Notes under the pieces: generated by a model
Databases searched by the model: none
The model's input: the letters and a program-made list of their open reading frames with translations, nothing else
Told to the model about the DNA's origin: nothing
Shown: positions 14,261 through 64,000 of the stretch, piece after piece
Numbering within the stretch: the first letter of the stretch is position 1
How the letters are laid out: each line of letters begins with the position of its first letter
From: Agarophyton chilense
Lineage: Eukaryota > Rhodophyta > Florideophyceae > Gracilariales > Gracilariaceae
Direction: 5' to 3'
Assembly: GCA_030374765.1 (NCBI GenBank)
Contig: JARGXX010000099.1
Span: 372,001 to 436,000 of the forward strand
Length of the DNA stretch: 64,000 nucleotides
Program-made: the position numbers and the translations under genes

Positions 14261-14395
14261 CAGTGCGTTTCAAAAACATATCCCTTTACAAAAACTGCGC
14301 CAAAAAGGCATTTCACGTACTGTAGAGCACATTTCACAACATATAAAAACCACTAAGTCAATAACACTGTTTCAAAAGTATATCCTTTATACAAT
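14261..14395. repeat. Left Tc1 end with outer and inner transposase-site repeats
   Basis: The outer repeat begins at 14261 and an inner copy of the GTTTCAAAA...ATATCC motif lies at about 14369-14385. Paired with the right end, this resembles the IR/DR arrangement of Tc1-like transposons such as Tc3 and Sleeping Beauty, in which each end carries two binding sites. Confidence 0.65.
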
Positions 14396-14408
14396 CATTC
14401 GCTCAATT

Positions 14409-18087: not shown

Positions 18088-18122
18088 GGGATTCGGACCT
18101 GAACACAGTGGATCCGAATCCC
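18075..18122 (+). promoter_or_regulatory. -1 ribosomal frameshift signal between gag and pol
   Basis: A GTTTTTT run at 18075-18081 overlies two Phe codons of gag. A 6-nt spacer containing the gag TAG follows, then a perfect 10-bp stem: GGGATTCGGA at 18088-18097 pairs with 18113-18122 across a 15-nt loop. Pol is in the -1 frame relative to gag and is open upstream across the site. Slippery run, spacer length and adjacent stem match the classic signal. Confidence 0.7.
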
Positions 18123-21100
18123 ATTCTTGACGAAGGGAGTCCTATATCCTCAGGAGGAATTATCTCTGCCGTGCGACTGTGTCAAGTGCTCAACATAGAG
18201 TTCAAACCCTCAACGGCAAGAAACAAATATCGCCGCGGATGGGGAGATCAATGCCTAAATCCTAAGAATGTTAAATGTTCCTGGACACTGTCCACTCAGG
18301 ACGTGAACAACAAGACGATGGAATTCACATTCGACCTGTTCGAGGACAAGTCACCCCTAACGATTGGGCTGGACGTGAAACAGTATAGTACAACAGACTT
18401 CTCTGTACATCAACCAACGTTGATAATCAGACGACCTCTAGATAGCGAAGCAAGAGTATTCAGGCTCTACTTAAGGTCTACATCCGTATACGATTTACGA
18501 GCTCACGTGGCCATCATACCGACCGTTTGTGGACTATTAAGCTCGGCAATTGAACGGTGTAGACCGAAAACACTGGCCAAGAGGTTGCATCGGCTGACGC
18601 ATGGTCATCCCAACGAGATAATCAGCCTTTGCGAACGGGCTGGATACAAATCCAAAGAACTCGAATTAGAGGTCAAGAAGATCAGCGACAACTGTCCTAT
18701 TTGTGCGAGATCTGGTCCACCTATACCATCAAAGAAGATATCGATTAATCATGTGAACCAAGCCTTCAATGTGGAAATACAGATGGATTACATGTTCTGT
18801 ACCATTCGAGACACAATATATTCAGTATTACACATAGTTGACGCAGGTACTGGCTATTCTGAGGCAAGCATCACATCTGATAGGGAATCACAAACAGCAA
18901 CAATCGTACTAGAAACGGAATGGTTCAACCGACACGGAGCTCCAGAAGCTCTGTCAGCCGATTACGAAATGGACTCAAAGATTATCCGTCGATTCTTATC
19001 GGGAAGGGACATCAGATTCAAAGCACGGCCCGTGAGAAGACATAATAAAACCGGCATCGTAGAAAGGAAACATGGGGTAGTCAAACGCATACTCGAGAAG
19101 CTCCAAATGGATACCACCCGTGGGAGCGATAAGACGATACTATCCAGAGCACTCTTTCTAGCTAATTGTTTCACAGGATCAAAAGTCATGAGCTCTTTTG
19201 AACTCGCGAAAGGGTACGCTCCTTCAATCCTAGGCGCACCCAGGAGGCTCGTGACCGAAGAGCTTCTGAAAGCCTACACAGAGCAGACAGCAACACGCGC
19301 ACTTCAACGGGTGCTAAAGGCACACGATCATTCAACAATACCCGAATCGGCTATAAAGCCGGGTGAGGAGGTGCTTTACTTCTACAAAAGTTCCAAACAG
19401 AACGAGGCTGACGAGTGGCGCGGCGCAACAGTCGTTAAAGCCCTTCCTCATATCGTCGAAGTCCGTCGTTCGGATAAGGGACCCGTATCGAAAATTTCCT
19501 ACGAAGATATCAGGCTGCGTCCGAGATCTCAACTCGCACGCGAACTGAGCGAAGGAGTCATGGAAGATTATATAGACCTCACACTCAGCCCAAGCAACAC
19601 CGACGTTCACGAAGAAGCTACAGAGATCACCACCTCACTCATGGCTAATAACGACGTCAATAGGGAACAAGTTTACAAAGATATGGGGCACTACACCGAC
19701 AATCTACTGACACACTCTGAACTCAACGACGAACAGACATTGCAGTCAAACGAACAGCAGATTCTGAAGGACATGCAACGGGTGATTGGGTCAAGACAGG
19801 TGAATGCCAGAGAAGTAGAATTTGCTCCAGCCTGGATATTACAGAAGGCAGTCGAGAAGGAACATGCGGATAATTGGTCGGAGTCATACATGGAGGTATC
19901 AGAGAATGAAATACCTCGTGGTGCAAACGTTATATCATCTCACACAGTGTACAAGGTTAAAGTAGACGAAGACAATCACAGGAAGTTGAAAGCACGCCTC
20001 GTGACACACGGAAACAGAGACGATCTTAAAGATGACATCAGAAAAGACTGCTCTAATGCCGATATGACCATCATTCGCATCTTGATTAGTGTCGCTCTTT
20101 CTCTTGGTTTCGTATTCGGCGTTGCTGATATCAAGGGTGCATTTCTTCAAAGTGGCCCAATACAGCGGGATATCTACGTCAGACCTGCATTGGAATTCCG
20201 AAAGAAGAAAGGCGTCCTATGGAAACTTATGAAGTTGCCATACGGAATCGTGGAAGCTGGAAGGCAATGGGCAAAACGTATAGAGTCATGGATGATCGGA
20301 ACAGCTGAACTAGAAAGGGTATACGGGGTTAACCAACTGTTTACAAAGAAGGATGAAGACGGCCGCATCACTCTTCTCATAGCCAAGATCGTCGACGACC
20401 TCCTGGTCGCCGGTACGGAATTGAGAATCCGCAACTTCATGGACTCACTACAGCACGAATTCGAAGTGGGAAAAGTCCGAATTGACGCCGTACTGAACTT
20501 TGCCGGATGTGATATAACCAAAGACGCGGACCAGAATGTCATCTTGTCAATGGTTCCGTACATGGAACGCCTCCATCCCATCGAACTTTCGAAGGCGAGA
20601 AGAAGAGAACGTGATGAAAGAGCTAATGACGACGAGATCAAAAAATATCGTTCGCTAGCTGGAACCCTCATGTATTTGGGCTCAGGCGTCCTTCCCTCAG
20701 CATCGTTCGTTACGTCAAAAATGCAACAAGAACTGGGTAATCTGAGAGTTAAGCACCTGGTAGATGCCAACGTAATGTTACAAGAAATACGAAGTTTGGG
20801 ACCTACGATCAAATACATCAGACCATTCGGAGTTACAGCCGTAACCTTGACCACTCTTTCCGATGCATCACATGGCTCCAAAGATCTCGCATACGGACAA
20901 TCGGGTATTATTTGCGGTGTTCAATTATTCACGGAAGTTGACGACGATCCCATCTTCCATCCCTTGTACTGGTCGAGCACAAAACAAAGACGTGTGACTT
21001 ACTCTTCATTCGGTGCAGAAATACTAGCGTGTGCGGAAGCAGAAGATCGAGGTTTTGACATGAAGGTGACGTTCGCTAACATCTTTCCGAAGATTAGCAT

Positions 21101-21386
21101 TTCTCACCGAATCCTAGTTGATTCTAAAGCACTGTTCGATACCATCACAACGTTACACGAATGTCGCGAATTTCGCTTGAGGAAAACAGTCACGATTATC
21201 AGAGACGCTTTCGAGGCCGGAGAACTGGATGAGATCACTTGGATTCCGGGAACAATCAATTTGGCCGACGCTCTTACCAAACGTAGCGTAAATCACTCAG
21301 CAAAGATGAACCAAATGTTTCGTGATGGGTTCTGGAGCATAGATGTTTCCAAAGGAGTCAGTCATGACTCAAGGAATTGGCAATAG
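18108..21386 (+). CDS. pol: Copia D Pol polyprotein (protease, integrase, RT, RNase H)
   Basis: The frame is open from upstream of 18084, so the true product is probably a Gag-Pol fusion entered by -1 frameshift; residue numbers here count from 18108. A protease-like start carries Asp-Glu-Gly (residues 8-10) in place of the usual DTG/DSG. Integrase has an HHCC finger (H161, H165, C196, C199) and D227, D285, E319. RT has VADIKGAFLQ (D674) and IVDD (D763, D764) where most relatives have YVDD. RNase H has TLSDAS and LVDSKALFD and ends with the copia tail GTINLADALTKR. Domain order defines Ty1/copia. No stop or frameshift is present. Confidence 0.92.
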   Translation: MDPNPILDEGSPISSGGIISAVRLCQVLNIEFKPSTARNKYRRGWGDQCLNPKNVKCSWTLSTQDVNNKTMEFTFDLFEDKSPLTIGLDVKQYSTTDFSVHQPTLIIRRPLDSEARVFRLYLRSTSVYDLRAHVAIIPTVCGLLSSAIERCRPKTLAKRLHRLTHGHPNEIISLCERAGYKSKELELEVKKISDNCPICARSGPPIPSKKISINHVNQAFNVEIQMDYMFCTIRDTIYSVLHIVDAGTGYSEASITSDRESQTATIVLETEWFNRHGAPEALSADYEMDSKIIRRFLSGRDIRFKARPVRRHNKTGIVERKHGVVKRILEKLQMDTTRGSDKTILSRALFLANCFTGSKVMSSFELAKGYAPSILGAPRRLVTEELLKAYTEQTATRALQRVLKAHDHSTIPESAIKPGEEVLYFYKSSKQNEADEWRGATVVKALPHIVEVRRSDKGPVSKISYEDIRLRPRSQLARELSEGVMEDYIDLTLSPSNTDVHEEATEITTSLMANNDVNREQVYKDMGHYTDNLLTHSELNDEQTLQSNEQQILKDMQRVIGSRQVNAREVEFAPAWILQKAVEKEHADNWSESYMEVSENEIPRGANVISSHTVYKVKVDEDNHRKLKARLVTHGNRDDLKDDIRKDCSNADMTIIRILISVALSLGFVFGVADIKGAFLQSGPIQRDIYVRPALEFRKKKGVLWKLMKLPYGIVEAGRQWAKRIESWMIGTAELERVYGVNQLFTKKDEDGRITLLIAKIVDDLLVAGTELRIRNFMDSLQHEFEVGKVRIDAVLNFAGCDITKDADQNVILSMVPYMERLHPIELSKARRRERDERANDDEIKKYRSLAGTLMYLGSGVLPSASFVTSKMQQELGNLRVKHLVDANVMLQEIRSLGPTIKYIRPFGVTAVTLTTLSDASHGSKDLAYGQSGIICGVQLFTEVDDDPIFHPLYWSSTKQRRVTYSSFGAEILACAEAEDRGFDMKVTFANIFPKISISHRILVDSKALFDTITTLHECREFRLRKTVTIIRDAFEAGELDEITWIPGTINLADALTKRSVNHSAKMNQMFRDGFWSIDVSKGVSHDSRNWQ

Positions 21387-47591: not shown

Positions 47592-49279
47592 TGACCTACA
47601 AAGGTAAAGACATCATGAACCATATGAGGCCAATTGAACCGTTGCCTCAAGGTGTAATACATCCTAGTGGCACCGGGCTGTCGCGATAGTCTCGGGTAGT
47701 GCGCGAGATACAAGACTCTTGAGCGCAGTGCCTTCGGAACCCCCTTTTGAAGGCTACCATCCAAGTTTGAACTTCTCAAGATGTACCCATTGTGGTCCAC
47801 ATCGAACGGTGATCCTTTGAAACCAATTTGGTCAGACAGGGTTCTGCAGCACGCATCGTGGGCCTGTTCTCGTAGAAAGTCCTCTCGGGTTACGGGCATG
47901 AAGTTCGTTTCCTCTAGGGTTAATATCTGCGTTGCCATGTCTGTGTTCCGCATGGCACCTTCTTCAGGTAAGTCCCAACATTTTTCTAGGTGTTTGCCGG
48001 TACCATTTTGGTTTGATGACACCAAAAAGCAAGGGATATCATCTTCCACAGGTTCTGTCTCTAACCCTGGGGTGTTTAAGCGTGACATAGCGTCAGCTAT
48101 GTTGTCCTTGATACCTGGACGGTACTGTACGTCGTATTCAAACTCCGACAGTCTCAACCTCCAACGGGAAAGTCTACCAGACGCATCTGCGAGTCAGAGA
48201 GTCCACCTTAAGGCGTCGTGGTCCGTGCGCAACGTCAAGCGCTCACCATACAGGTATGGACGTAGCATCAACATGCTCCACACTACTGCTAGACATTCTT
48301 TCTCGGTTACCGTGTAGTTCTGCTCCGCCTCATTCATAGCTCGGCTCCAGTACCCTATGAGTAATTTGTCTCCGTTGTGCTGCTCCTGCATGAGAGAACA
48401 ACCAATTAGGGCATGGGATGCATCTGTATCCAGCGTGTACGGTAGATCTGTTTTCGGTAACGCTAAGATTGACGGCGACAACAGTGCTCGTTTCAATTCC
48501 TCAAAGGTATCCATTTCGTCGTTCGATAGATTCTCAAAACGTTCAGGTTCACCTTTCTGGAGTTTCTTGTCGAGGGGAGCCGCTATTTTCGCGAATCCCT
48601 TCACGAAGCGGCGATAGACGTTACATAAACCTATAAAGGATCGTATGTCTGTCTGGGATCGTGGCAACTTGACCTTTTGTACGGCTTTAATGTTGCTCGG
48701 CGCAACCTCTAGGGTACCAGGGACTATGATGTGGCCAAGATATTCAGCCGTTATGGTAAAGAAGACGCATTTGCGTAGCTTCAGCGTCACCCCCGCCTCA
48801 GCTAGGAGGGTTTGTACGGTGCGCACGTGAGCAAAATGCTCTTCTACCGATCTGGAGTAGATGATTACTTCATCGATGTATACCAAGGCCGTTGTCCACT
48901 TAACCTTCGAAAGGATGATGTCCAGCGCCCTTTGAAAGGTGGCTGGAGCATTACGCAACCCGAATGGCATCCGCGTGAAGCGAATCAAACCTGCATGGCA
49001 CGTGAAGGTCGTTTTGTCTCGATCTTACTCACCTACAGATACCTGCCAATAACCACAATTGGCATCCAACGTGGTAAATATCTGCGCATCTCCCAAGGAG
49101 TCGATGCACTCATCCATTCTAGGTATCGGGTACGAATCCCCGATGGTCACGCTATCGAGCCTCCTGTAGTCCACACAAAACCTCATACGGTTATCCCCTT
49201 TCTTCTGAACCAGAACCACGGGACTAGCCCAATCTTGGTTGGCTGGTTCAATTACCCCTTCTTGGAGCGTTCGCTCCAC
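47492..49279 (-). pseudogene. Gypsy C RT-RNase H and integrase zinc finger, broken
   Basis: RT begins at 49279 (ASPVVLVQKKGDNRMRF, DSYPIPRMDECID, FTTLDANCGYWQV with the first Asp), meets a stop at 49025, and continues at 48988-48194 (FTRMPFGLRNAPATFQR). The YxDD box reads YIDE, so the second catalytic Asp is lost. RNase H follows (YTLDTDASHALIGC, ECLAVVWSMLML, LRTDHDALR). The last part (48157-47492) has the FEYDVQYRPGIKDNIADAMSR tail and the integrase HHCC finger (HYPRLSRQPG...CESCVHTR, with one His changed). Frame is mostly kept; point damage is the main cause of loss. Confidence 0.78.
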
Positions 49280-49521: not shown

Positions 49522-50214
49522 CTACCGATGCCTTATTGGTAGCTTTGAATCCAAATTCGTATTTATCGATACCTTTGTGGTTGTGGACGCATTTGCGCAC
49601 CTCCCTTCCTTATCGAAGGCGACCTCGCCGAGATAAGTGTGAGCTACGGTGAAGACCCCTTGTGGTGCCGGTAGTGCGATGCCAACATTGGTATTTTTCG
49701 GCAACTTCAAGTTATGAATGCTGAAGATGCTGAGACACACCTTAAAAGGTTGATTTGGGATGTTGTCGACAATCTCGTTGGCAATCAAGGTGAGGTTTCG
49801 ATGTGCTAACCTCGGATGGTTTTGTAGTATGACCAGCCTGGGGGTCGCACACGACACCGGTACAAATATTTGGTGCATTGGCGGGATAACAACCTGCTTG
49901 GTAATGCGCACTTTGTTGGAGACCGTTTTGGTAGATATCCTCTTCTTCGGTTTGACAAACCATACCTGTTTGGTTTCTGTATTACCTAAAATGGCAATTC
50001 GTCCCCCCTGACGTAGGGCGACGGTATGGGAACCAGGAAGGATTGCTTTGACATGTCTGTCAATGAAGTTCGTACCTAGTAGGCAGTCTGTCGGTAAACG
50101 GTCAACAACAAAGAATTGCAGTCTTACCTTGAGGTGTCCGAGCTGCATCACAATGGTGAGCATACCTCGAAGGTTTAATGGGCGCTCATTTGCATCCACA
50201 AGCGGGTTCGTCAG
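49522..50214 (-). pseudogene. Gypsy C protease C-terminal part and pol linker
   Basis: The frame resumes right at the transposon insertion with NERPLNLRGMLTIV and reaches the protease end CLLGTNFIDRHV, followed by a linker comparable to that between protease and RT in gypsy B. The protease N-terminal part with the Asp-Thr-Gly site is on the other side of the 12.7-kb transposon (near 63045), which proves the nesting order: gypsy first, DNA transposon second. Confidence 0.75.
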
Positions 50215-50231
50215 TGTTCTCGGAATGCTAG
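50215..50231 (+). repeat. Left terminal inverted repeat of the CMC-type transposon
   Basis: TGTTCTCGGAATGCTAG, preceded by CAG. Inside it lie subterminal CTAGTTT motifs: an inverted pair at 50333-50343 and 50354-50364, and further copies at about 50380-50387 and 50397-50406. They are candidate transposase-binding sites, as in CACTA-type elements. Confidence 0.85.
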
Positions 50232-50723
50232 TTCAGTGGTCAAAAAAGGACGAATTGAAATGACCGAAAAACCACTGAATTTATCCAAATTTGGAGGTGT
50301 AAATTTCCGAAAATATTTTCATTCGTTCATTAGTGCTAGTTTGTATGGGAAGGAAAACTAGCACATATCTGCAGTTTTTCTAGTTTTGATGGAGGTAAAA
50401 CTAGCGTGAATCTTTCTGTCGCCGCAGTTTAAAGGTAAAAGTAGAGAAGTGGTGCAGGAGCAGATTCAATCTTTGTGCGCTCTAGATTGACAGAATATTA
50501 CAAACAACCGGTCCCAAAATGGACCTCAAAATAGAAATTGAACATTTAGTACAATCCATATCAATCGCAATAGAATCGCAGCCCGACCTGGCAGACCTCA
50601 CGTGCCTTGCATTCTATATTATTCTCCACCGCCCTCCCCTGTCACGTGCCCTGTGTGCGCCATACTCTCTCTCCGTCTACGCCCCCTACCAACTTCTTTC
50701 CCACCACCTCTCCTCCACCCACC

Positions 50724-53700
50724 ATGCCTTCCTGCTGCTTCAACGGTTGCTCTTTCTTCGCCCGAGAAATCCCCGCCCTCCAGCGGCACCAGAGAAGGTG
50801 CCCTCATCTCCTCTCCGCCAACAAGCGCTTCCTCTCCCCTGGCGGAAATGAACCCAACTTCCCCCCCCCGCACAAAACACCACAAGTCCACCTCACAACT
50901 CCCCCCTCATCTGCCTCCCTCACATCGCCCTTCCGACAACGTCCCTCTCGCACACCATGACTCCTATCTCCAAGACCAGCTCTCTCTCTCCCTCCACACC
51001 CAGGACGCCATCCACGTCGCCACTGCCCCTCTCGGTTCCCCCTCCTCTCTCGCTCTCTCCCCCCTCCCTCCTTCCACTCCCCCCCTCGACAACCCCCACC
51101 TGGAGAAAATGGTCCTCTACATCTCCTCCATCGCCTCCAAGCTTGAACAACGAAAGGCTGACGAACTCATCACTCTCCTTAATGATCCCCACTTCTCCGA
51201 ATCAACATTCCGGAACTCAGTCTCCTCCGCAAAGCAATGCCTCGCGCTCCAGGCAGACCTCTTCCACCAGAGAATCAGGTCCATTGGTTTCGCCCCCTCC
51301 ACCATCTTCGATTCCCACAAACGCTTCTCCGCAACCCTCTTCCAGAAAGACGCAATCCATGTCCTCAAACAACAGCTCGCCGTCGCACACTTCAAGAACA
51401 CCTTTTTCCACCCAACTCCCAAACATCCGCCTCCGGCTCCCCCGCCTTCGCACACCCCATGGCAGCCACCCTCTGCTCAAAAGTCGTCCCCGCACTCAAG
51501 ACCGCCATCATGCAGTCCACAAAAGATAACATCGTCTGGCATCTCCCTCACTCCACCGGTATCGACTCCTTCATCGACCTCGTCCAAATCTACTCCGACA
51601 AGTCCTCTACCTCTCTCAAATCTTCTTCCATCACCTCCTACCCCCTCCACATCACCCTTCTCAACTTCTCCGACTCCTTTCGCCGCAAATGCATCTCCGA
51701 CAATCTCACACTCCTCGGCTTTCTTCCCACCTCCTTCACCCCAATCACTCCTTCTCCAGATGCAGATATCATCACTCATTCCTCCTCCATCCCCCGCCAA
51801 ACAAAAATGGAACTCATACAGCAGACCATCTCCTCCCTCCTTCAACCTCTCTTCTCTTCCGCCCTCCCCGGTTTCCCCTTCCGCGACGCAGACGGCGTTC
51901 TTCGTCAATGCCACCCCATCATCGCCAGCTACTGCGCAGACATTCCCGAGGCAAAGGATATTCTCGCCATCTCCCACGGCACCCGCCCCTCGCACCCCTG
52001 CCACAGATGCTCTGTCCCTCGCTCACAACTCCACCAACACTCTCACACCCATCCCCCTGGATCTCTTCCCCTTCACCCTTGCAGCCCGCAACAAACACTT
52101 CTTCCTCCTCAAGGACTCCGAAGCAGCTCTCCTCGCCCGCAAGCCAAGAGTCTCGCGCAACTTCAAGGAACAAGCTCTCCAAGCACTCCACTCCCTCTCC
52201 CTCGCAAAATACCCCTCCCTCTTCGAGTCTTACCCCCTTTTCAACATCACCCCCCTCCTTACCCCATACAACATTTTCCCCTTCCAACCCCTCCACAACT
52301 TCCACCTCGGCGTTTCCAAACTCATCAAGCTCGCCGCCATCGAACGTCTCAGATCAGAACATCTCTTCACCACCATCAGCTCCACAAACTCCCGCCGTTC
52401 CTTCCACTCCGTCCGCACCTTTATCCTCAAGCACTCCAACTTCATCCTCACCGCCATCAAAAATCATTCCCCAGCTACCGGCCTCCACATCGACTTCTCT
52501 ACTTCCGAAAGCTGGCAGTCCCTCAACGGCTTCTTCACAACTGACGGCGTCCGCGGCATGCTAGAAGCAAAAGACTACCGCGCCCTCGACATTGTCTTCC
52601 CCTTCATCGGCGCCTTCTTCGACCGCTGCTGTGACGAAGCCAATTCCGCTCCCATCACAACTGTCTTCTCCAAGTACACAGACCTCCTTCTCACCTCCAT
52701 GTGCTACAACTCCGTCCCCGAATGGACCACTTCTCGTCTTGCCAAACTCGCCTCCCAAATCCATTCCTTCAAGCACAGAGCTGTCGATGTTCTCGGTCCA
52801 TACCATACCTCCAACCTTGGCACCCTCAAATTCCACCTCCTCGATCACATCGTAGACGACATTCGACGCTTTGGGGGTCTCCACTTCAACGATGCAGGCA
52901 TCTTCGAACAAGCCCATACCCTCTTCAAAGCACATTACTCCCGAACCTCCAAGCGCAGACCCACCGCGCACAACGAAACCATCCGTGCCATCGAACGCTC
53001 CGATGCCGTCAACAATTGGATTTCTCTCTCCGCTGATCCTTCCGTCACCTCATCCTCCCATGCCCCTCCTCCTCCCTTCCAAGCCCGCAAACCAGGTTTC
53101 GTCCGTGATGGCAAGCACACCTCCTTTTCCGATCTCATCACCGCTCACAAATTCCTTCGAGCAAACCCCCACTCAACAATCTCTTCCCTTCAGGACCTCT
53201 TCTTCCCAGACACTATCGCCATCATCCCACAGATTGGAACCCTCGCACTCCCCTCCTTCGTCACACTCACACTCCAAACACTAGCTCTCAACCAGGACTC
53301 CCCCACTCTCCGCCAAACCCGTCTCACATTCGTCAATTCCGCATACGTCGTCGGCGGCTTCACCCCAACCCTAGACGACTACATCGCCGATCGAAACGAG
53401 CTCGCCGTCAAAGATCCCCCTCTCGCACTCATTCAACGTATCTTCGCTGCTCCCTCCTTCGGTCCCTCTAAAACCCCAAAGTTCTCCCACATCCTCGTTG
53501 CCGGTTCCAGCTTCTGCAACCCCACTCCCACCGCCTGGGTCTGCAAGCTCAACTCTCTTCTTCGCTTCACCACCCCTTCTTCCCCTTCCACTCATAACGA
53601 GTTCGCCTTCGTTCAGTTCCTCGAACTCGTTCCACCCCAGGATCAAGTCGATGTCTCTCTCAATTGCATCTGCCTCCGATGGGCAACAGACGACGAACAA

Positions 53701-53988
53701 AACCACACCGCCCACCCCCTTCCTATCTCAAACACTTCCAACTCCGACAACGTCTCCCCCTGGTTCGGCCTCGTACCATCCTCTTCCATTCTCGGCCCCG
53801 TTCATGTACTTCGCCAAAACTACCCCGCACCCCCTTTCACCCCTCGATTGCACTGGCGCTTCCATCGATTTCACCTCAACAGATTCTACCTAGACCCAAC
53901 TGCCAAGCCCTACTTCTCCAACACCACCACTGGTGGCACAACACCACCACTGGGTGGCACCCATAATAATACCTCCCAAGGCACATGA
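50724..53988 (+). pseudogene. TNP2/Plavaka-like transposase, with frame breaks
   Basis: A 1128-codon frame (50602-53988) is open throughout only because the DNA is so C-rich; coherent protein sequence changes frame. From ATG 50724 an N-terminal Cys/His finger (CCFNGCSFFAREIPALQRHQ) is read in one frame. The protein moves frame at a C-run near 50863-50872, again near 51410-51455 and back near 52015-52050. Family-like segments: DADGVLRQCHPIIASYCADI, then CHRC (the transposase core with Asp and paired Cys, ~51890-52012), FQPLHNFHLGVSK (~52283) and the C-terminal NDAGIFEQAHTLFKAHYS. These match the layout of CMC-type transposases. Indels, sequencing errors or short introns could explain the shifts. 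Confidence 0.62.
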
Positions 53989-54075
53989 TCCAATAAAATA
54001 GTCACCGCTGCTTTTTTTCCGTAGCCGACCCCCATCTTGCTCCACCTCCTTACCCCCTTATCCCCCCGTACCTTA

Positions 54076-56730
54076 TCACTCTCCCACTCCTTGCCTACTC
54101 CCCAACGCTAAGCGCTTGAACCGTGGTTCTTCTGGTCCACATGACGCTATATAGCAATCTAACACCGCTCCAAGTCTTCTCGTGAGATTCTCCATGAAAA
54201 ACTCCTCCCTTATCGCCAGATAGATTTTCTCTCTCGACGGTATCCATAGCCCAACCGTCGCGATTCTCTCCTTATTCCCACTCACATCTCTACGATTCCC
54301 TCCACAGAATCCATCATTCTCAAACTCCTCAGCATACTCATCCTTCACCATGTTCCAGGCAACCCTCAATATGTCCTCAACAGCCAGTGGCAGAAACCTC
54401 CCAAACAGCGTCGAGAACAAAAGTTGCCTTTGGCCTCCCCGCCCAACGTCTCTATCCATCGTGGTCACCACACATCCAATCCATGCATCAAGTCGCGCAA
54501 GATGCATCACCGTCCCACCCACATACTGCCTTTCTCCATTTCTGTGACTCTCTACCGCGTAGCCCATAAACTCCTCCAACACTTTCAACGACACCTGATT
54601 TCGAAAATACATATCTGCCTCACCAAAGTCCTCCAAGTTCTCAGACACCTTCGATCCAGAATAAGTAATATCTTCAATCGCACTCGTTCTCCACGCACAC
54701 AGCTTACCTCTCCCATCCTCCCCCGACCCCATCAACTTCTCCTGCGCCTCCTCAATCTGCTTCTTCAACTCCGCCCAAAGATCCGTCCCTTCAGTCAACT
54801 TAGCTCGTTTCGCGATCAAATCATATCCAAGCATGGAAAACAGCTTATCACGCGCTGCTCGCTTCCGCACCCCAACCACATCGCTCAATGCTTGCTTCAT
54901 CCTCTGTCTCAAGCACCTATCCGCACTTACATTTTCCACGCACTCCTCTCTCCTCACCGCTTCCCTTATCGACTCCCATTTCTCTCACATTAACTCAGTC
55001 TCTACCACGTGCTTCAACAACAAATGGCTCCCGCCCTCTGTCGACGGCGTATACGGTCTCATCTCATATGCAACCTCAATTGGACATCTCGGAACCATTT
55101 CCTTCTCTCCTACCACAAACATACTTTCCTCCCTACTCTCCCCAACCGCCTCACTTCTATTCTTCTAGCTTCGACCCATATTCTCGGTGTCGAAGCAAAG
55201 TTCCGATGCCTCCAGTTTTGCACAATGAAGAATCCTATCATACACACGACGTGCAAATCCATAAAAGCATTCCTGCACTCTAATGTCATGCTTTCGTCGC
55301 CTCGTCACGCCTCCCTCCCCCCTCCCTTCCCCAGCGATTCTACTTTTCAACGCCTCCCTCAAACTCTCAATCAGGACATTCTGCTGCTTCATTTCCTCCC
55401 TCGCCCGATCCAGCTCCGTTTGGGTCATTTTCAAACTCACCATCACATTGTAGCTGTCTTCCTTCATACGTCCCATTTGTCCCTTCAACACATTCATCTT
55501 CTCAATTAGCATCGACCGCGGCAACAAACCTATTTCATCATCATTTGCTTCATCTTCCACTATACGGACGGCGTTCTCCACGACATTTAAATTCGCATTC
55601 TCCTCGTTATCATTATTCCTTGTGAATACAATGTTTCTCCTTACTCGCATACCTTCCGGCGTCCTTCGCCTTGCGTTCACCTCAAACCCTTCAACTCCCA
55701 AACCCACCCCTCTCCTCGGTGGCAAACGCTCGACATGTTCTCCCTGATGAGAAAGAACTGCTGCTCTTCCATCGCCTTCCTCCCCTGAACCACGTGTTCT
55801 CCCTCCAGCAAACCCCCTTCTCCCCCCCTCACTCACATGCACTTCTCTGCTTTCCCTTTCTTCTATCGCTCTTCTTCCTGTAACTCGAACACTCCCCATT
55901 CTTTCCCTTGCACGCTCTCTCCTTTCTTCCACGTAATCCAAGTTCGCCCCCTCCCATCTTTCCGCCTGTTCCCCCGCGGAAACTCCAACACTCTCTCCTT
56001 CTGTTCTCTCTCGAACGACTCTTGCGCCCGCGATTAGACCACTACTGGGTCCACCTATTCTACCCTCCACACCTCGGCTACTCTCTATTCTCCCTTTCTG
56101 TATCTCATCATCACCGTTCTCTTCCCTCATACCCGTAAACGATGCCCCTGCTTCTTTAACGCCTCTGAGGCGGGATCCACGTTCTCCGATCATTCTCTCT
56201 CCCTCCTTACGCCCCTTCGTCCTCTCATTCGGAATCTCTTCACCTCCTTCAGGTGCAGAGCATGGATTTACCGGCTCCACATCAGCTGAAGACGTGAGTA
56301 CAGCACTTAGAGTCCGCTCGGATGCATCCCCTCTCCTTGTCCTCTCTGGAGCTCTGCTCGCCCTCCCCCGCAATCCACTTCTAGGTACACGCGTGCGGTT
56401 GCTTCGCACGCCATCCCGTTTTCCATCGCCGCTCCGCACCATCTCTCCCGTAGGCGACGTGATTTTCTCCGTACGCGACGTGATTTGCTCCGCACTCTCC
56501 TCGGTCACCGTCTCCTTTGCGCGAACAGCCTTTCCTTTGCCCCCACTCGCCTCTCCTTTCCCACCATCTTGCCTTGATCTACCCCTCAGGCGCACGCCTC
56601 CCTTCTCTCCACTCGCGCCCTGGAGCCTACGCCCCTTGTCCCTACCGCCCTCCGCATCCCCTCCATGCCGCCGTGATTATGTACCGCGCCCGCTAGTGTT
56701 CTCGCTTCTCGATTTGCGCTTCGGAGCCAT
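54076..56730 (-). pseudogene. Accessory protein of the transposon, three nonsense codons
   Basis: One frame of 885 codons from ATG 56730 (MAPKRKSRSE, nuclear-localisation-like) to 54076. It is broken only by TAA at 56679-56677, TAG at 55167-55165 and TGA at 54987-54985; no indel is needed. The first ~300 residues are Arg/Glu/Gly-rich and disordered. A coiled coil follows (~residues 380-450, EKMNVLKGQMGRMKEDS..., TELDRAREEMKQQ), then a helical C-terminal domain (SDVVGVRKRAARDKLFSML...) without a recognised family. It may be a DNA-binding partner of the transposase, a role inferred only from position. It is read in the same direction as the methyltransferase gene, 380 bases downstream of it. 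Confidence 0.55.
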
Positions 56731-57108
56731 GGTTAAAGATATAGAGAGCGATCGTGGTATGGTCTTCCACGCGTTGCAATGCGATGGATGGGAGAGAAGC
56801 TTCGAAACATTCTGCTTCCAAAAATATACCTCCACCCTTTTCGTGTTCTCAGAAAACCCCCAAACTTTTCAGATATTTTAAATATGCGCTCGAACGCACT
56901 AGATATTGGAAAAGTATTCTCCTTCGGAGTACATGACTTTCCTTTAGCATATGTACTACGTCACGCTTTGACGTTATATGTAGCGACAAACATAGTAAAA
57001 GCTCACAATATCTGGTACACTACAATGAAATAAAGTAACAAAAGCGATGCATTTTTAATCGATTACTATGACTGGCGTGTTATTCATACTCCAGATATAC
57101 TCTGTCCC
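56731..57108. other. Spacer between accessory gene and methyltransferase gene
   Basis: About 380 bases with no real gene. It includes the read-through of the SET domain beyond its stop: in the same frame, codons 57105 to about 57058 still spell SET-like sequence before the next stop. Confidence 0.5.
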
Positions 57109-60100
57109 CTAATCCGCGAACAGCTCCTCTCCTATTTCTATATCTCGAATTGCTTGCACAGAAAGCAATCTATAGTCTCTCAACTGCAATGGGGTCCGCC
57201 CCGTCCCCGGAGTTCTGATGACCCGAACATTTGCAGTTCGGCGTCTCATTAACCCGTCTTCAACCGCATCCCTGTCCCTATCCCCTTCCACATACTTGGG
57301 GCCGTTAATTGTTCCCCCCAAGCAAAATGGAGCAGGGACAATCCACACCGGAATAAGAGACACCCCACTAATTCTTCCTGGTAGCTTGTGAAACACTTCC
57401 CCTCGGACGCTTATCTCCATCGCGTACTGCCGAAAACGATCAGCAGTCGCTTTCAATAGCCCCCCTCCGTATGCCTTATGAACTTCCTTCCGTTTTGAAA
57501 GATCATGGTACACCAAAGTCCCGTAAAAGTAACAAACAGTCTCACCTTGTATCACTCGGCGTGTTGTGTACACACCAACTCCCGCATTCGGGTGCCTTAT
57601 CGTCGACTTTGCAATCCGACAACCACATACTGTTGCCTCCACTGGCAGAATAGCATTCCAATCCAACAGTGACATCTTTCCTTGAAAACTTCTTGGCCAC
57701 TCATACAGCGCCTGCCGTCGCCCAATCTCCGATATATTCTTATCCTGCCACATGGAGGAGAGAAAATCCACGATATGGGGTGGAAACATCTGATGCTCGG
57801 GAAATCCAATAGGTGTTTTCCAGGACTTCGAACGCTTTATGACGACGTCCGGAAACAAGCATGTCACTCGAGTCACAGCGTTCCGAACATCTTGCGTAAT
57901 ATGAATGTCCGTCTCGTCGTTCCGCATGCATGACGCAAATTTCACTGTAGCGGCGTGCTTCGCATGAGCAAAGCACTGCGGATCTGGCTCACACCCTAGA
58001 AACTGACGGTGCTTTTCCAGTTCCATGCATGCCATGGCCGTTGAAAATGTTCCGGCGAAGAGGTCCACCACTATGTCTCCCGGCTGAGAAAACCTGCTGA
58101 TGAGCTCCTTCAGCAAAGCGCGTGACTTCTGTTCCGCCCGCACTTTCTGATACGTAACTGCTCCTTTGGCATTCTTCCTTCTCCATAGAAGTGTTTCACC
58201 ATTCGACATGGGAGGCACTTGGTCAATCACGCTATGGTAACCCAGATATCGCGATGGTACATAGCTGAAGTTCTCATAGTTCACCATGCCATGTTGTTCG
58301 GCGTAGGAAAACCCGCTGCGAACTCCATGAATGGCGTACTCTGTTCCGGGAAACAGCGAGCACGAACTACGTCCGGGATTACGCATCGGATTGCCTTGAG
58401 AGCGAATGAAGTGCAGCTGGACCTTGTCCACGACAAACGACCTGCTCTTCTGTCCATTCTCATCCTTTGCACCAATTCGACCCGACACTTCTTTCCATTC
58501 GTTCACCTGCTCAATCGCGCAGAATATAACGAAATGCCCTCCCGGACGCAGAAGTTTAGAGATGAGCTTCGCCGTCTTCACCATGTCTTGCCGGTTAAGA
58601 ACGTCGTACCAGCTGTTTTTCCTGTTCTTCTTCGCACGTATATTATACGGCGGGTCCGTGAGAATTAACTGCACTTTCCCTGTCGGAGAGACCCCATTGC
58701 TGCGCAATGTCTCGTCAATCTCCACCAGGTTCTCGAAAGTACAATTGTACATTCGACAGTGCTTATCCATCTCCGACTCGCACTTTTGGAGAGACATTAT
58801 ATCATCTAGAGAGGTAAGGTCGTGAGGCGGCAGAATATCCACCGACTCAGATTCGACCGACCTTGGTCCAGCTGTGGAAGAATGCTGACCAACACCCATG
58901 TTCTCTTCCTCATTCCCGGTCCCACCCTCCATTCCCTCTCCACCCTCTACCGCCGGAGCCTCCGAATCTTTCTCAGGGGGTACAACTTCTATCTCGTCTT
59001 CTTCCATAACCATAGTAGGTTCTGCCTTTGTCGCAGCCACCACTTCCACCTCCACACTCCCTCGCAGCTTTAGTGGCGATATGTATTCCGAGATGGTAGA
59101 GATAAGAGAGTTCGAGAAGCAGTCGAATCTCTCCGCAAACACTCTAGGCAAAGTGTATGTAAACGGTTTTAGAACGTCCCATCTTTCCGGAGCTGATATA
59201 GAGTAAAGCTGCTCATTCACAACCACTTTGTGCAGGTCAGCGAGAAACTCTTTGGCCAACATACGAAGTGGAGTGTCAACGTACTCCGGCAGGTTCCACG
59301 CCCATGTGTCGACATCCTCCTCCAATAAAGTACGGTTTTTACCAGGAAGGAGTCGTTGGGCCATGTCATTGTGAGAGAACCCATCCCTTCTGTTTCCGAT
59401 TGCTTGGAACTGCATATCAGAATATCGTAGATGGATAAAGGGAAAAACCATGAATTCCACGCCAGGGAATCCCAAATACTGGGCGAAGCTGTCCCACGCG
59501 TTATTGACGAGCTGCACACCAAAGCCCACACGCTGAGCTACTGGTTTGTCATAAATCGCCACCTTCGAAAACGGCGTATCGTAGGTTCTGTCCCGCTTTC
59601 TTCGCTTACGGGAGACTCTTCTCTTCTCCATAGAGACCGACTGAATACAAATGAGGAACAGCAACCTCTGGAACATTGTCGAGAAGTCGGTCGCGAATGG
59701 AGCTCGGCTTTTGCTCGCCTTCTTTCGGGTTGTATCCAGACCTTTGAAGAACTCTGTCAAAGTGACATTCTTCGGGATGCCCTTGAACTCCACCGCCTCG
59801 TATGCGTTCCAAAAGTCCCTCACGCGCCTATCTGGGTCCCCATCCCTTATATCCAGCAACCTCGCCGAAAAATAATTCTGACAGTTCGAGCCCCTCATTC
59901 CTACAACTCGGAGCTCATCTTCTGTGTAATTGGTGTGGTGGGGACCTAGGAGAGTGTAAAAAAACTTCGCGGTCTCCGGTAGGATGTGGCGATTGGCAAT
60001 TGCGAAATCGATGAATGCAGTGGGCCCCACTTTTCGCGGCTCATCTTCCTCCCGCCTCGTTGATGCGTAACGATCACGCAAATCCAGACACGCCCTGATA

Positions 60101-60186
60101 AGTTCATCCCCCGTACCAAACAGTTTACCCATTTCGAAGGTGTCTGCCGCAGGCGATGAAGAAGTTCTCGTGGGTTCTGGAGCCAT
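57109..60186 (-). CDS. DPPY-type DNA amino-methyltransferase fused to a SET-like domain
   Basis: 1025 residues from ATG 60186. Residues ~1-380: a region not recognised. ~390-480: acidic linker. ~480-760: a methyltransferase with ILTDPPYNIR (D511-Y514) before DLFAGTFSTAMACME (from D708) and ...LGCEPD. This permuted order (catalytic motif first, AdoMet loop later) is that of bacterial beta-class N6-adenine/N4-cytosine DNA methylases, not the MT-A70 RNA methylases. ~860-1025: a SET-like domain (AGVGVYTTRRVIQGETV at the start, GGTING mid-way, IEIGEELFAD at the end). The TAG stop falls where the Tyr of the closing DYG motif is expected. It would methylate DNA amino groups, with SET for chromatin targeting or histone methylation (inference). 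The methylase half has no visible lesion. Confidence 0.8.
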   Translation of the reverse strand: MAPEPTRTSSSPAADTFEMGKLFGTGDELIRACLDLRDRYASTRREEDEPRKVGPTAFIDFAIANRHILPETAKFFYTLLGPHHTNYTEDELRVVGMRGSNCQNYFSARLLDIRDGDPDRRVRDFWNAYEAVEFKGIPKNVTLTEFFKGLDTTRKKASKSRAPFATDFSTMFQRLLFLICIQSVSMEKRRVSRKRRKRDRTYDTPFSKVAIYDKPVAQRVGFGVQLVNNAWDSFAQYLGFPGVEFMVFPFIHLRYSDMQFQAIGNRRDGFSHNDMAQRLLPGKNRTLLEEDVDTWAWNLPEYVDTPLRMLAKEFLADLHKVVVNEQLYSISAPERWDVLKPFTYTLPRVFAERFDCFSNSLISTISEYISPLKLRGSVEVEVVAATKAEPTMVMEEDEIEVVPPEKDSEAPAVEGGEGMEGGTGNEEENMGVGQHSSTAGPRSVESESVDILPPHDLTSLDDIMSLQKCESEMDKHCRMYNCTFENLVEIDETLRSNGVSPTGKVQLILTDPPYNIRAKKNRKNSWYDVLNRQDMVKTAKLISKLLRPGGHFVIFCAIEQVNEWKEVSGRIGAKDENGQKSRSFVVDKVQLHFIRSQGNPMRNPGRSSCSLFPGTEYAIHGVRSGFSYAEQHGMVNYENFSYVPSRYLGYHSVIDQVPPMSNGETLLWRRKNAKGAVTYQKVRAEQKSRALLKELISRFSQPGDIVVDLFAGTFSTAMACMELEKHRQFLGCEPDPQCFAHAKHAATVKFASCMRNDETDIHITQDVRNAVTRVTCLFPDVVIKRSKSWKTPIGFPEHQMFPPHIVDFLSSMWQDKNISEIGRRQALYEWPRSFQGKMSLLDWNAILPVEATVCGCRIAKSTIRHPNAGVGVYTTRRVIQGETVCYFYGTLVYHDLSKRKEVHKAYGGGLLKATADRFRQYAMEISVRGEVFHKLPGRISGVSLIPVWIVPAPFCLGGTINGPKYVEGDRDRDAVEDGLMRRRTANVRVIRTPGTGRTPLQLRDYRLLSVQAIRDIEIGEELFAD

Positions 60187-60725
60187 TCATGTACGTGTTC
60201 AAACAACCTCACGGGCGGTCGTCACGAGAGGCTGAGTGAAAGAGAGCAGCGGGTGCGGGTGGGTGCGGGTGGGTACGGAAAGATTGTGAGTACGGTTGAG
60301 GAGCGCGCACGGAAGAACGGTTGTTGCGGAACGACTTCGCGGCTATCCTGGTTGCATTCTGTCGGCCGACAGAGGTGCGCGGGGACTTCATCGGGACCCC
60401 CGATGAAGTCGGAGCGCACCTCTGTCGGCCGTCAGGATATTTTTTAATTTTTTAGTTTTATTTTCTTGTATCGCCTACCAAGCCAATAGGCGTGTTTGCG
60501 ATGGAAAGAGACAAGGAGTTTCTTGAGTTTGAAACTAAGCGGACGTAGCTCAGGTTGAAACTAAGCGGACGTAGTTCAGGCTGATTGCAACGTACTGCTC
60601 TCGGGAGTGTTCCGGATAGTCGCCACCAAAGGAGCTCGATCCAATACGTCTCAGTCTGTATACCATAAAAGGCTCAAAGCGCTCTGCGACCATTTGCAAC
60701 CTCGACCGACTACGATCCGATTCAA
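60187..60725. promoter_or_regulatory. Divergent intergenic region with hairpin and tandem repeat
   Basis: This 540-bp region lies between the divergent methyltransferase and dioxygenase genes, so it probably holds both promoters. It contains a G-rich run (GCGGGTGGGTGCGGGTGGG) near 60254-60272, a long hairpin at 60363-60431 and a 26-bp tandem duplication at 60530-60555/60556-60581. A TATA-like TAAAAGG lies near 60665. Confidence 0.5.
60363..60431. repeat. Long hairpin in the divergent promoter region
   Basis: Bases 60363-60380 pair with 60414-60431 (18 bp), three mismatches follow, then 60384-60395 pair with 60399-60410 (12 bp) around a 3-nt loop. The outer arm begins CGGCCGACAGAGGTGCGC. It is too perfect to be chance in old DNA and could bind the element's own protein or act on transcripts. 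Confidence 0.75.
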
Positions 60726-60872
60726 ATGATGACTAGAGGCAAAGCGAAAGCGAGGGGTACTCCGCGGGGTACTCCACGCGCCACTCCGCGAAAAGCTAAA
60801 TCGGGAAACAATCTAGCTGGTGGGGATAGGACTTGGCCCGCGAGTAATTCGCGACTAAGAGAAGTGAGCTGA
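60726..60872 (+). CDS. Short basic leader frame before the dioxygenase gene
   Basis: Two adjacent ATGs (60726 and 60729) open a 48-codon frame rich in Arg, Lys, Pro and Thr, with a repeated RGTPRGTPRATPRK segment like a DNA-minor-groove or nuclear-targeting tail. Its TGA at 60870-60872 overlaps the ATG of the next frame (TGATG). Either a one-base change has split off the true N-terminus of the dioxygenase protein, or translation reinitiates at the overlap. Confidence 0.45.
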   Translation: MMTRGKAKARGTPRGTPRATPRKAKSGNNLAGGDRTWPASNSRLREVS

Positions 60873-61899
60873 TGGAGAAAGGATTTTGTGTGCTGGAAGA
60901 GTTTGCCACGGACGAGGGGATGGCGGATGAGGCGAAGAAGAGGGGGGTAAACTTCGATGGAGATGTGACTGGGACTTTGCTAGAGTTCTTCCAGACGGAT
61001 TTCTTGAACCAGCCGGACTTGACGATTGAAGGGAATAGAAAGAAATGGGACCCTATAATCAACGCTGGTGAGGAGAGAGACGCTGGAGATAGAGTGAAGG
61101 GAGTTGGGCGGTACATTACGACGAAGGTGGGGATTGTGGATTCTGTGGAGGGGGACGAGAACAAAGTTTTAATGGTGAGGAAAAGGGCATTATTGGATGC
61201 GAGGTTTGGACAGATTGCGGCCGCTCTTCGGTTGTGCAACAACCGGTCGGGGAAGAAGAGGATGTATGCCCCTGAAACAGGGGGGCGAGTGCTGTGTACG
61301 GCGGAGGGCTGTCCAAGGCAGGTGTTACATACGGACTTTCGAGGACTGACCGATGCCGAGAAGAACGTCGGAGAGGTTCCAGGGTTCTTCATAATGGCGT
61401 CGGGAGCGAGTTCGTTTATGCTTTGGGTTTGTGAGAGGTCACATAACATGTACGTACCCGACGACAGGAGCTTGAAGCGGGTGTCTCGGACGATGGTAGT
61501 GAGGAAGTTCAGGATTCCGCCGTACTCCATTTTTATTGGAAGAGGAGATGTGTTTCATTCTGGAGCTGGATACGAAGATGCATTGGTTAAGGAAGTTTGC
61601 ATGAGGTATCACATGTACTTGGTACCGGATGGGTACAAGCTACCGGACGCAGTGCATAGACAACCAGCATTTCGGCCTAAGTTCGAAGAGGATGATTCCA
61701 ACAAGGGTGATGATGAAGACGTCCAGGTAGATGAGGATGAGGAGTTGGATGAAGATTATAAAATGGAAGTTGTTGAAAGTGGGGTGGGGAAGAGGAGTAT
61801 GAAGAAGAGGATGATGAACCTGAGATGGGTCTCAACTCGGCTAACACAGATGGAGACTATGAAGACGGCGGTATGATAATGGATGACGACGACGACTAG
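60872..61899 (+). CDS. 2OG-Fe(II)-dioxygenase-like protein of the transposon
   Basis: From ATG 60872 the frame gives 334 residues ending at 61876. A one-base shift near 61788, in a G-rich run, would instead give an acidic tail ending at 61899, which looks like the original end. The core has the double-stranded beta-helix pattern: LHTDF (H153, D155), GFFIMASGASSFMLWV, PPYSIFIGRGDVFHSGAGY (H229), then CMRYHMYL (R245). His-x-Asp...His binds iron and the late Arg binds 2-oxoglutarate in this superfamily. TET/JBP, AlkB-like and other branches cannot be told apart by eye. Oxidation of modified DNA bases is a hypothesis drawn from the neighbouring methyltransferase. Confidence 0.6.
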
Positions 61900-62058
61900 A
61901 TAGTATCCGTTACCTATTGAAAAATAAAGAGTACAATTTGAGGTAATATGTGGAGTAGTCTCCTTTTCTTGTAATAGTGATCAGTCGTCTTTCAGTAGAA
62001 ACTCCTGAACAACTTGATTGAAACGCGTGAGAGCAGCACTTGCTTTCACTTTCTCATA

Positions 62059-62718
62059 ATGAATGACAACTGTCGAAGATATCAAGATTACGACATCAGG
62101 GAGCTTGCAGGTGGATTGAAAGAGAAGGTGGATGACTGCATTTCCGAGGTTGTTTCTGAGCTGGGAGGGGTAGTGCTGAGTGCGTCGGAGGGTGGGGTGC
62201 CATTGGAGGCGATATCGAACGTTCGGAGGGGGGTGAGGCTAGCTGGAAAGATGGCCAGGGATCATATAGATGGGATGGTGGAATGCATGGGGCTGGAGAT
62301 GGGGAAGCTGTGGAGGGCAAATGAGGAACTGAAGAGGCGTGTGAAGGTGTTGGAAGTGCACATGGAAGGGGTGGGGGAGATTTGGGGTGCGCGGAAGGTG
62401 TTGAAGGAGGTGGGAGAGGAGAGGGGGAGAGCGAAAGGGTCGCCGGTGACGCCAGGGAGACGCGGGGAGCCGGCTGGGATGAAGAAGGGGAGAGAGGAAT
62501 GGAAAGGGGGAGGAGTTGGAGAGAGTCGGCTGAAGAAGAGGAGGGTTGGTAAGGATGTGGAGAAGAAGGGTGGGAATGTGTGTGTGGTGGGGCAGCCGGG
62601 TGTGAGGAACTTGAGCAGTGGGGAGGTGGACGAGGTTGAGAATGCGGTGGTGGACTTCTTCAACCTCAAATACCCTCCTGGTGGAACGCTGGAGCCTAGT
62701 AAGCAAAATGGCCAGTAA
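62059..62718 (+). CDS. Coiled-coil basic protein of the transposon
   Basis: 219 residues from ATG 62059 (the frame is open to 62014). A helical N-terminus (ELAGGLKEKVDDCISEVVSE) and a coiled coil (MGLEMGKLWRANEELKRRV) are followed by a Gly/Lys/Arg-rich disordered part with a KKRR cluster, then a small C-terminal segment (VDEVENAVVDFFNLKYPPG). No family recognised. It may be a DNA-binding accessory factor; plant CACTA elements also encode a second protein that binds subterminal repeats, but homology is not claimed. No lesions seen. Confidence 0.5.
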   Translation: MNDNCRRYQDYDIRELAGGLKEKVDDCISEVVSELGGVVLSASEGGVPLEAISNVRRGVRLAGKMARDHIDGMVECMGLEMGKLWRANEELKRRVKVLEVHMEGVGEIWGARKVLKEVGEERGRAKGSPVTPGRRGEPAGMKKGREEWKGGGVGESRLKKRRVGKDVEKKGGNVCVVGQPGVRNLSSGEVDEVENAVVDFFNLKYPPGGTLEPSKQNGQ

Positions 62719-62963
62719 GGAGGTAGAAGGTACTGACGACTGCCTTGGTATGGATCTCCACCTAGAGCGGTCAAAAGTGACCAGTAAACTGCAAATGCAG
62801 ATTAAACTGCATTAAGTGGTCAAAACACTAAGATGCGGAGTTCTTATTTCCAATTTTTTTTTTTCAGGTGCCGAACTAGCGCAATCCCCAAAATTCTTAG
62901 ATTTTTTGGCTTTTTATTTACAAAACTAGCTATCTAGCACACTTATCTAGCATTCCGAGAACA
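62719..62963. repeat. Right subterminal region and terminal inverted repeat
   Basis: It contains GGTCAAAA motifs near 62767 and 62817, also present near the left end (50237), AACTAGC copies at about 62874-62880 and 62924-62930, and the terminal repeat at 62947-62963. CAG follows at 62964-62966. The shared subterminal motifs in inverted orientation support one element spanning 50215-62963. Confidence 0.75.
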
Positions 62964-62966
62964 CAG

Positions 62967-64000
62967 ACGTTGTTGTCGGGAGGTCGGCTCAAGTTGCGAA
63001 GTACCGCCTCAGGTATGACGCGAGAGTTCAGGACGTTTGGGCCGGTCCCGTATCCAACACGCAGGTGACCAGAACCGCAAGGCGATCGGAGAAACACATT
63101 GAAGCACGTAATTTATAGTTATTGTACTTCATATGACAACCCGGAACTGGTTGTGACGTGTTCTCTTCCACCGTCAAGGATCTGGGTATCGATTGGCCTT
63201 CAAATTGCAGGTTGGGTTCCGCCATTACGCCAACCATTCGGTGTTTTCCTCCTGTACGGGAGGGGTTGAGTCTAAGTTTGGTGTTTCCTCGATGGTACTA
63301 ACCAGTACCGGTGTACGGGGTTGGAACCTATCCGATGCTTGCGTTGAAGACTTATAGAGGCTTTGGTGATTCTGCATGCGAGCCTGAATCAACTGGTCTC
63401 TCATCCCTGGCGGTAAGTTAGCGCAATTGTTTGCCAAATGGTCTGTCGCGAAACAGAACCAGCAAACGAGGCCTCCGATTTGGGGGTCTCGCGTTACCAT
63501 TTAGGGGGGATTCGAAACCTGGTTGGTAGGAGCAGTGGCGTAAGATGTGGGTGGCGAGTTATAGGAGCTCGCTCCCTGCATCCTGTGCGAGCTCATCGCA
63601 CTTGGCGGCGATGGTACCGAGTTTGGTGTACGCGTTGAAGACCAATTTCCTACCGTCGAAGGTTTCGAGAACCGCCCCTGGGTCACTACGAAGTGGATAG
63701 CGGTCCCTGTAGGTAATTCGATGTGCGAGCTACCGTCTGAGGTTGTGGTGTCTTCAATTTCCAAGACAGGCCTTTTCGATTTATCCTTCGAGGCTGGAGG
63801 CAAGGCTGGTCTCTTTCCAATCCGAAGGGTATCTCCAAGGCCCTGAGAGTATCGAGCCAGCCCATTGTAGTCTATCTTTCGGTTAGTGGCCAGGTAGTTG
63901 CGTACCTGGGACCGGATCGCTCTGTCGACATTGTCGGCAAATAGCGACTTTAACCTAGAGATAGTGAACACATTACCACAACTGGTTGCCAGATTCCAAA
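62967..64000 (-). pseudogene. Gypsy C Gag (C-terminal part) and protease start
   Basis: From the window edge downward: a Gag tail (63971-63501, Ser/Thr/Pro-rich end), a stop, then a CCHC zinc knuckle CWFCFATDHLANNC (63500-63225), then the protease start with VLDTG (about 63045). A missing base after the Asp-Thr-Gly shifts the frame; the other frame continues with GPNVLNSRVIPEAVLRNLS up to the transposon at 62966. The element continues beyond the window, so its 5' LTR is not seen. Confidence 0.78.

Follow-up and report, generated by a model that had tools for sequence, protein, structure and literature searches.

Several described systems share parts with the transposon analysed here, a 12,749-bp element at positions 50215-62963 of a 64,000-nucleotide stretch of DNA from the red alga Agarophyton chilense (the window; C99:372001-436000, contig JARGXX010000099.1 in an 80-Mb genome of 135 contigs). 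Giant EnSpm elements have been described in red algae (Petroll et al. 2025, via PMC12477816), and those of Chondrus crispus are 16-20 kb long with 4-5 open reading frames (ORFs; Kojima et al. 2013, via PMC6431247). According to PMC12477816, Sola1-1_Ec32 of Ectocarpus encodes a protein with a ParB-like domain and an N4-cytosine/N6-adenine (N4C/N6A) DNA methyltransferase, and similar proteins occur in green and red algal transposons. PMC12730594 places TET/JBP genes in 11 transposon lineages, assigns all TET-bearing Plavaka families to PlavakaB, with CATCA..TGATG ends, and mentions that some HarbingerS and MuDR transposons of Phytophthora bear SET genes. The bdelloid N4CMT is, according to PMC8885841, a host gene with an SPPY motif and a chromodomain.

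The element in the window belongs to a large Plavaka-type (CMC/EnSpm-related) family, of which it is a shortened and damaged copy: frame shifts, stops and an internal deletion exclude an intact element here, and the ParB-like domain, palindrome array, target site and second family described below are invisible from this copy alone. Ends, duplications, copy number, linkage of the genes and a second family that has both of them were observed directly. From these we propose, with a probability of roughly 0.55, a Plavaka-type family at the site CGTCWGACG, whose divergent predicted methyltransferase–SET and ParB-like/oxygenase genes would act jointly to set and alter marks on the chromatin of the element itself.

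The family resembles the red-algal giant EnSpm elements in its CMC-type transposase, similar length (~18 kb in fuller copies), several accessory genes and red-algal host, but it is Plavaka by Pfam and has TGT..ACA ends, in a comparison that covers transposase, ends, length and number of genes. With Sola1-1_Ec32 it shares a ParB-like domain and a predicted N4C/N6A methyltransferase, encoded by an accessory gene in the opposite orientation to the transposase; in that Sola element ParB and methyltransferase form one protein, whereas here the methyltransferase is joined to a SET-like part and the ParB-like part belongs to a different protein with an oxygenase-like end. Like fungal PlavakaB, this family is of Plavaka type and has a gene for a likely 2-oxoglutarate oxygenase, but one without a TET/JBP match in Pfam; the portion of PMC12730594 seen names no methyltransferase partner gene for PlavakaB and tells of no methyltransferase fusion in the HarbingerS and MuDR elements, which share a transposon-borne SET and differ in transposase class. 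As with the bdelloid N4CMT (PMC8885841, in part), a bacterial-type amino-methyltransferase stands in a eukaryote, here with DPPY and SET, and DNMT-bearing retrotransposons also mobilise a DNA methyltransferase, but of the C5 type (PMC5890265, in part).

The element is bounded by perfect 17-bp terminal inverted repeats (TGTTCTCGGAATGCTAG; 50215-50231 on the plus strand, 62947-62963 on the minus strand), outside which lie the target halves CGTCAG (50209-50214) and CAGACG (62964-62969), with the duplicated CAG at 50212-50214 and 62964-62966, just as the initial annotation had described the repeats and duplication. The terminal 17-mer occurs in the window twice exactly and once with 3 mismatches, whereas 100 shuffles gave a mean of 0.20 matches when up to 3 mismatches were allowed, which rules out a chance inverted repeat. 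Genome-wide it is found 182+162 times at up to 1 mismatch (reversed control, 0), and CGTCWG followed by the repeat marks 250+242 = 492 ends at up to 3 mismatches (reversed control, 4+1 = 5), so the search for other copies with the same repeats, which that annotation had set as its check, found many. Exact CGTCWG precedes 87 of the first 100 exact ends listed, where 0.05 would be expected at equal base use, and is missing from the other 13. In end pairs chosen for exact ends facing each other, all 13 show a 3-bp CWG duplication and 12 rebuild the palindrome CGTCWGACG; the target site of the remaining pair is CGTCAGTCG. The uninterrupted palindrome occurs 514 times in the genome and a control word 739 times. 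The family target is thus a 9-bp palindrome, and the 3-bp duplication points to a cut with a 3-bp stagger.

At this site the host sequence is a gypsy-type retroelement, with a reverse transcriptase at 48194-48988 and, read by eye, a protease-like frame at 49522-50232 that has no Pfam match. Retroelement copy L002 has both flanks without the element between them; as 11 bp are missing there, however, it falls short of a clean empty site. No further unoccupied retroelement site was found at up to 3 mismatches.

The transposase gene (50724-53988, plus strand) matches the Plavaka family PF18759 at 71.8 bits (E 7.6e-20; cut-off 26.3), and its counterpart in copy L041 does so at 80.8 bits. The transposase first proposed from the window is therefore real and of Plavaka type; this copy of the gene is frame-shifted, and 7 of the 29 other copies read keep a single open frame. 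Invariant across 12 transposase sequences are D456, C476xxC479, H754xxxH758 and E778, and the first catalytic aspartate is probably the nearly invariant D342, an assignment made by spacing. The TGT..ACA termini of PlavakaA are present (here TGTTC..GAACA, in pairs picked by exact ends), but filing the family there was rejected on the 2-bp duplication of that group, since all 13 pairs carry 3 bp; the TET-bearing PlavakaB was rejected on its CATCA..TGATG termini, which these elements lack.

The predicted DNA methyltransferase–SET gene (57109-60186, minus strand) matches N6_N4_Mtase (PF01555) at 67.3 bits (E 2.5e-18; cut-off 26.7). In its product DPPY, which we take to be motif IV, lies at 511-514 and precedes DLFAGT at 708-713, presumably motif I, an order typical of the beta class. 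The closest solved fold is CcrM, and sequence and model together predict an N6-adenine or N4-cytosine DNA methyltransferase, the CcrM fold leaving the choice between the two undecided. A SET-like C-terminus is likewise predicted: against the PF00856 cut-off of 22.4 the window copy scores 16.6 bits (E 0.01), having lost its last 18 codons to an in-frame stop relative to the longest other copies (open frame 1043), and homologues score 20.5 (P0001), 19 (P0007), 28.5 (P0002) and 26.7 (P0003). The beta-class methyltransferase–SET fusion proposed at the outset is upheld for the methyltransferase half; the SET half, a prediction, falls below threshold in the window and above it in P0002 and P0003. 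Viral contigs hold six loci that match the methyltransferase, in its core only, and no oxygenase relatives were found in them.

The partner gene survives in the window as a remnant (60727-61876, plus strand), in which an internal deletion of ~2.5 kb has joined the start to the C-terminal oxygenase-like part at ~60823-60830 with an 8-bp overlap. Fuller copies carry a 1247-aa frame, and the "dioxygenase" of the window is its tail. The N-terminal part of this protein is predicted to be ParB/Noc-like from a ParB/Srx fold and a DGxHR-type motif, and PHROGs and NCBIfam give only weak ParB/DGQHR hints. The C-terminal part is likely a 2-oxoglutarate/Fe(II) oxygenase, as an HxD...H...R motif is invariant in 11 sequences and a low-confidence model yields three weak fold rows (PrhA 3.6, SO_2589 3.5, SptF 3.4). 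The 2-oxoglutarate-Fe(II)-dioxygenase-like protein claimed from the window thus stands in its motif, but its ORF is a fragment with no Pfam match, and no library searched names the family. TET/JBP was set aside as a name for the oxygenase, since Pfam searches with 11 members at E<=10 returned no such family, although HMMER may miss remote members. That the oxygenase is a TET/JBP enzyme or erases the methyltransferase's mark is not supported, and calling the two genes a writer and an "eraser" is a fair guess.

Both genes belong to the element. Gene counts here are lower bounds, the best candidates having been scored in each search (45 of 229, 118 of 207, 68 of 439, 85 of 208, 53 of 195 and 46 of 476). 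The linkage comparison took in 45 methyltransferase places (from 46 rows, two of them pieces of one place), 68 of the 69 rows for the transposase and 61 of the 125 for the oxygenase; the oxygenase rows are at >=90% identity, one for each copy, with paralogues and second pieces excluded. Within 16 kb, 40 of the methyltransferase places have a transposase, 38 an oxygenase, 33 both and none neither; at one place the nearest oxygenase gene is 10.6 kb off and there is no transposase. The methyltransferase–transposase gap is ~3.1 kb in most places, and the methyltransferase–oxygenase gap 3.2-4.4 kb, against 0.66 kb in the window. Conversely, with 45 of 229 methyltransferase candidates scored, 28 of the 68 places with a transposase and 23 of the 61 with an oxygenase have no scored methyltransferase within 16 kb, and an additional family methyltransferase (C73:200974) was found between one such transposase/oxygenase pair. 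With another family gene beside 45 of 45 scored methyltransferase places, host genes that merely neighbour a transposon are ruled out; the initial annotation's other refuting condition, modification genes lying elsewhere as ordinary host genes, was likewise not borne out at these places, and a single CMC-type element with methyltransferase–SET and oxygenase-like genes, as the initial annotation had it, is what the copies bear out.

Exact 17-bp terminal repeats also lie within ~1 kb of stop-ridden oxygenase paralogues of 39% identity (C68:1691237, C68:2036903-2052342 and C68:3130642), and an older family sharing the ends of the window element seems to be present there.

Two kinds of short repeat accompany these genes. 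Between the methyltransferase and oxygenase genes the window has an 83-bp inverted unit (60356-60438) with two 16-bp near-palindromes (at 60358 and 60421). In C10, a fuller copy that itself has a broken second gene and a broken last ORF and is the single one read across that stretch, 12 sites within 3 mismatches of TCTGTCGGCCGACAGA, one of them exact, span ~0.8 kb at the same place, and sites at up to 2 mismatches also occur in five short-looking copies (L002, L005/L049, L006, L052 and L065). These near-palindromes are parS-like in form and may be binding sites: as in bacterial ParB/Noc-parS systems, 16-bp palindromes stand beside the gene of a predicted ParB-like fold, but here in a eukaryotic transposon and with an oxygenase-like end, and we take the palindrome sequence to be unlike parS. 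Near the termini are repeats with a CTAG core, on the left at 50336, 50358, 50380 and 50401 (50336-50404) and on the right at 62876, 62926, 62934 and 62947 (62876-62950). The two terminal 250-bp stretches hold 10 CTAG against 1.6 expected, a number reached in 0 of 2000 first-order simulations. CTAG positions are mostly retained across the 13 ends compared, which include the right end of the window element itself (L009) and one end under two names (L004 and L049); L008 retains only two.

The divergent pair is most likely a chromatin module for the element itself, with a role in transposition as its main rival. In such a module the ParB-like part would bind the palindromes between the two genes and carry the oxygenase along the element, while the methyltransferase would mark element DNA, with the CTAG-cored subterminal repeats as a candidate site. 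The SET part would mark the element's nucleosomes and the oxygenase would alter one of the DNA or nucleosome marks, so that copies stay expressible or transposase access to the ends is timed. A bolder version, which we put forward only tentatively, is a partition-like epigenome run by a eukaryotic transposon: a ParB-type clamp would load at the parS-like array, spread and bring the oxygenase, the methyltransferase–SET protein would write DNA and histone marks in one step, and the module would have moved between at least two element families.

Alternatively, the pair may serve a step of transposition, the methyltransferase marking ends, target or new copies for the transposase and the ParB-like protein pairing or holding DNA. 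Dam methylation regulates some bacterial transposons in such a way, and the transposase sites of CACTA elements are methylation-sensitive; the CTAG-cored repeats near both ends are CACTA-like, and the palindromic target also suits this possibility. It is nonetheless less probable, as the palindrome array is interior, between the two genes and not at the ends, and end recognition leaves the SET-like and oxygenase parts unexplained.

Both genes recur in a second family. The database protein P0002, used as a query, aligned to at least 24 places over its residues 2-852 at 59-61% identity, 22 of them without stops, and oxygenase paralogues 56% identical to the window's form 13 copies of near-equal score. 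In a comparison of 32 of 55 methyltransferase rows with 25 oxygenase paralogue rows, 15 of the 32 places have a paralogue within 20 kb, divergent in 13 of the 15. P0002 and P0011, a methyltransferase and an oxygenase, are each listed with 4 contigs, the longest of 20,528 bases, which fits one shared contig without proving it. Second-family places, such as C95:4083-15054, C95:2983697-2993123, C98:1489874-1500199 and C33:3541-12194, tend to lie near contig ends (21 of 32 within 20 kb of a known end, some contigs being of uncertain extent); TTAGGG repeats, looked for as a sign of subtelomeric location, were not found, and breaks in the assembly at repeats may also produce such ends.

This second family favours a reading of the pair as a mobile epigenetic or conflict cassette, directed against competitors such as viruses and other transposons, or as a selfish stabiliser, with the transposon merely its carrier. 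None of the 46 scored Plavaka transposase places lies beside the second family, but these are the best 46 of 476 candidates, so that absence weighs little. By eye, the methyltransferase relatives P0007 and P0009 have a DGxHR-type N-terminus of their own, which suggests that ParB-like and methyltransferase parts have been shuffled between proteins, as modules of a cassette might be. Against this, no Pfam nuclease or toxin was found among the element frames searched, and we regard a cassette as rather unlikely.

Selection bears on whether the genes matter to the element at all. As uncorrected counts among related copies, the ratio of nonsynonymous to synonymous polymorphism (pN/pS) comes to 0.49 in the oxygenase part (313 codons; 27 copies, the window's included) and 0.69 in the transposase (1050 codons; 26 copies). 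Left out for stops were 3 of 30 oxygenase sequences, and for numerous gaps 3 of 29 transposase sequences. For changes in at least two copies the ratio is 0.45 and 0.41, and for singletons 0.54 and 0.83, respectively. That the pair consists of captured passengers, drifting and roleless for the element, would accord with the stops in many copies and the variable region past the oxygenase gene, but is very improbable given an oxygenase pN/pS below 1 even for shared changes, methyltransferase and oxygenase motifs retained in homologues at 26-49% identity, and the recurrence of the two genes in a second family, in which those found together are mostly divergent.

The remaining frames vary in their preservation. 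The second gene (54076-56676, minus strand), one of the "two further proteins" of the initial annotation, is a single frame of 930-960 aa in several other copies, but in the window at least two stops break it. The last ORF (61999-62718, plus strand) has a region, ~residues 95-239, common to many other copies among the matches listed. The stretch beyond the oxygenase gene differs from copy to copy: between that gene and the last ORF, copy C10 has two frames (L070:1106-1861 and L012:484-1308, both on the plus strand) that are absent from the window copy, have no Pfam match above cut-off and may be cargo. Element genes read through without introns, which, like a Gracilaria hit and the known giant EnSpm elements, fits a red-algal host; no RNA families were found within the element at gathering score. 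Strand asymmetry is very strong, with a GC skew of ~-0.52 to -0.56 over the transposase and second gene (51001-56000) and +0.37 to +0.42 at the right end of the element (61001-63000). Besides the gypsy-type reverse transcriptase, other mobile elements in the window include a Tc3-like transposase (13326-14894) and a Copia-type reverse transcriptase (18108-21386).

The element type and the methyltransferase theme, including ParB/DNA-methyltransferase proteins in algal transposons, are known as far as PMC12477816 was available. Our literature search found no transposon with methyltransferase–SET and ParB-like/oxygenase proteins, within a reach that left out the primary red-algal sources, likeliest Petroll et al. 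2025; the available portions of PMC12695648 and PMC12502185 have nothing on such a pair. In print we did not find a methyltransferase fused to SET, a ParB-like/oxygenase protein as its separate partner, the array of palindromes or this target site, a list that the primary red-algal sources could alter.

These elements address the question of whether mobile elements write their own chromatin state, beyond evading that of the host. As many full and deleted copies share one genome and one type of target site, long-read base-modification data alone could answer it. If our reading is true, the links between ParB-like and oxygenase parts and between methyltransferase and SET would add new means of spreading marks and coupling them, and a sequence-addressed chromatin tool might result.

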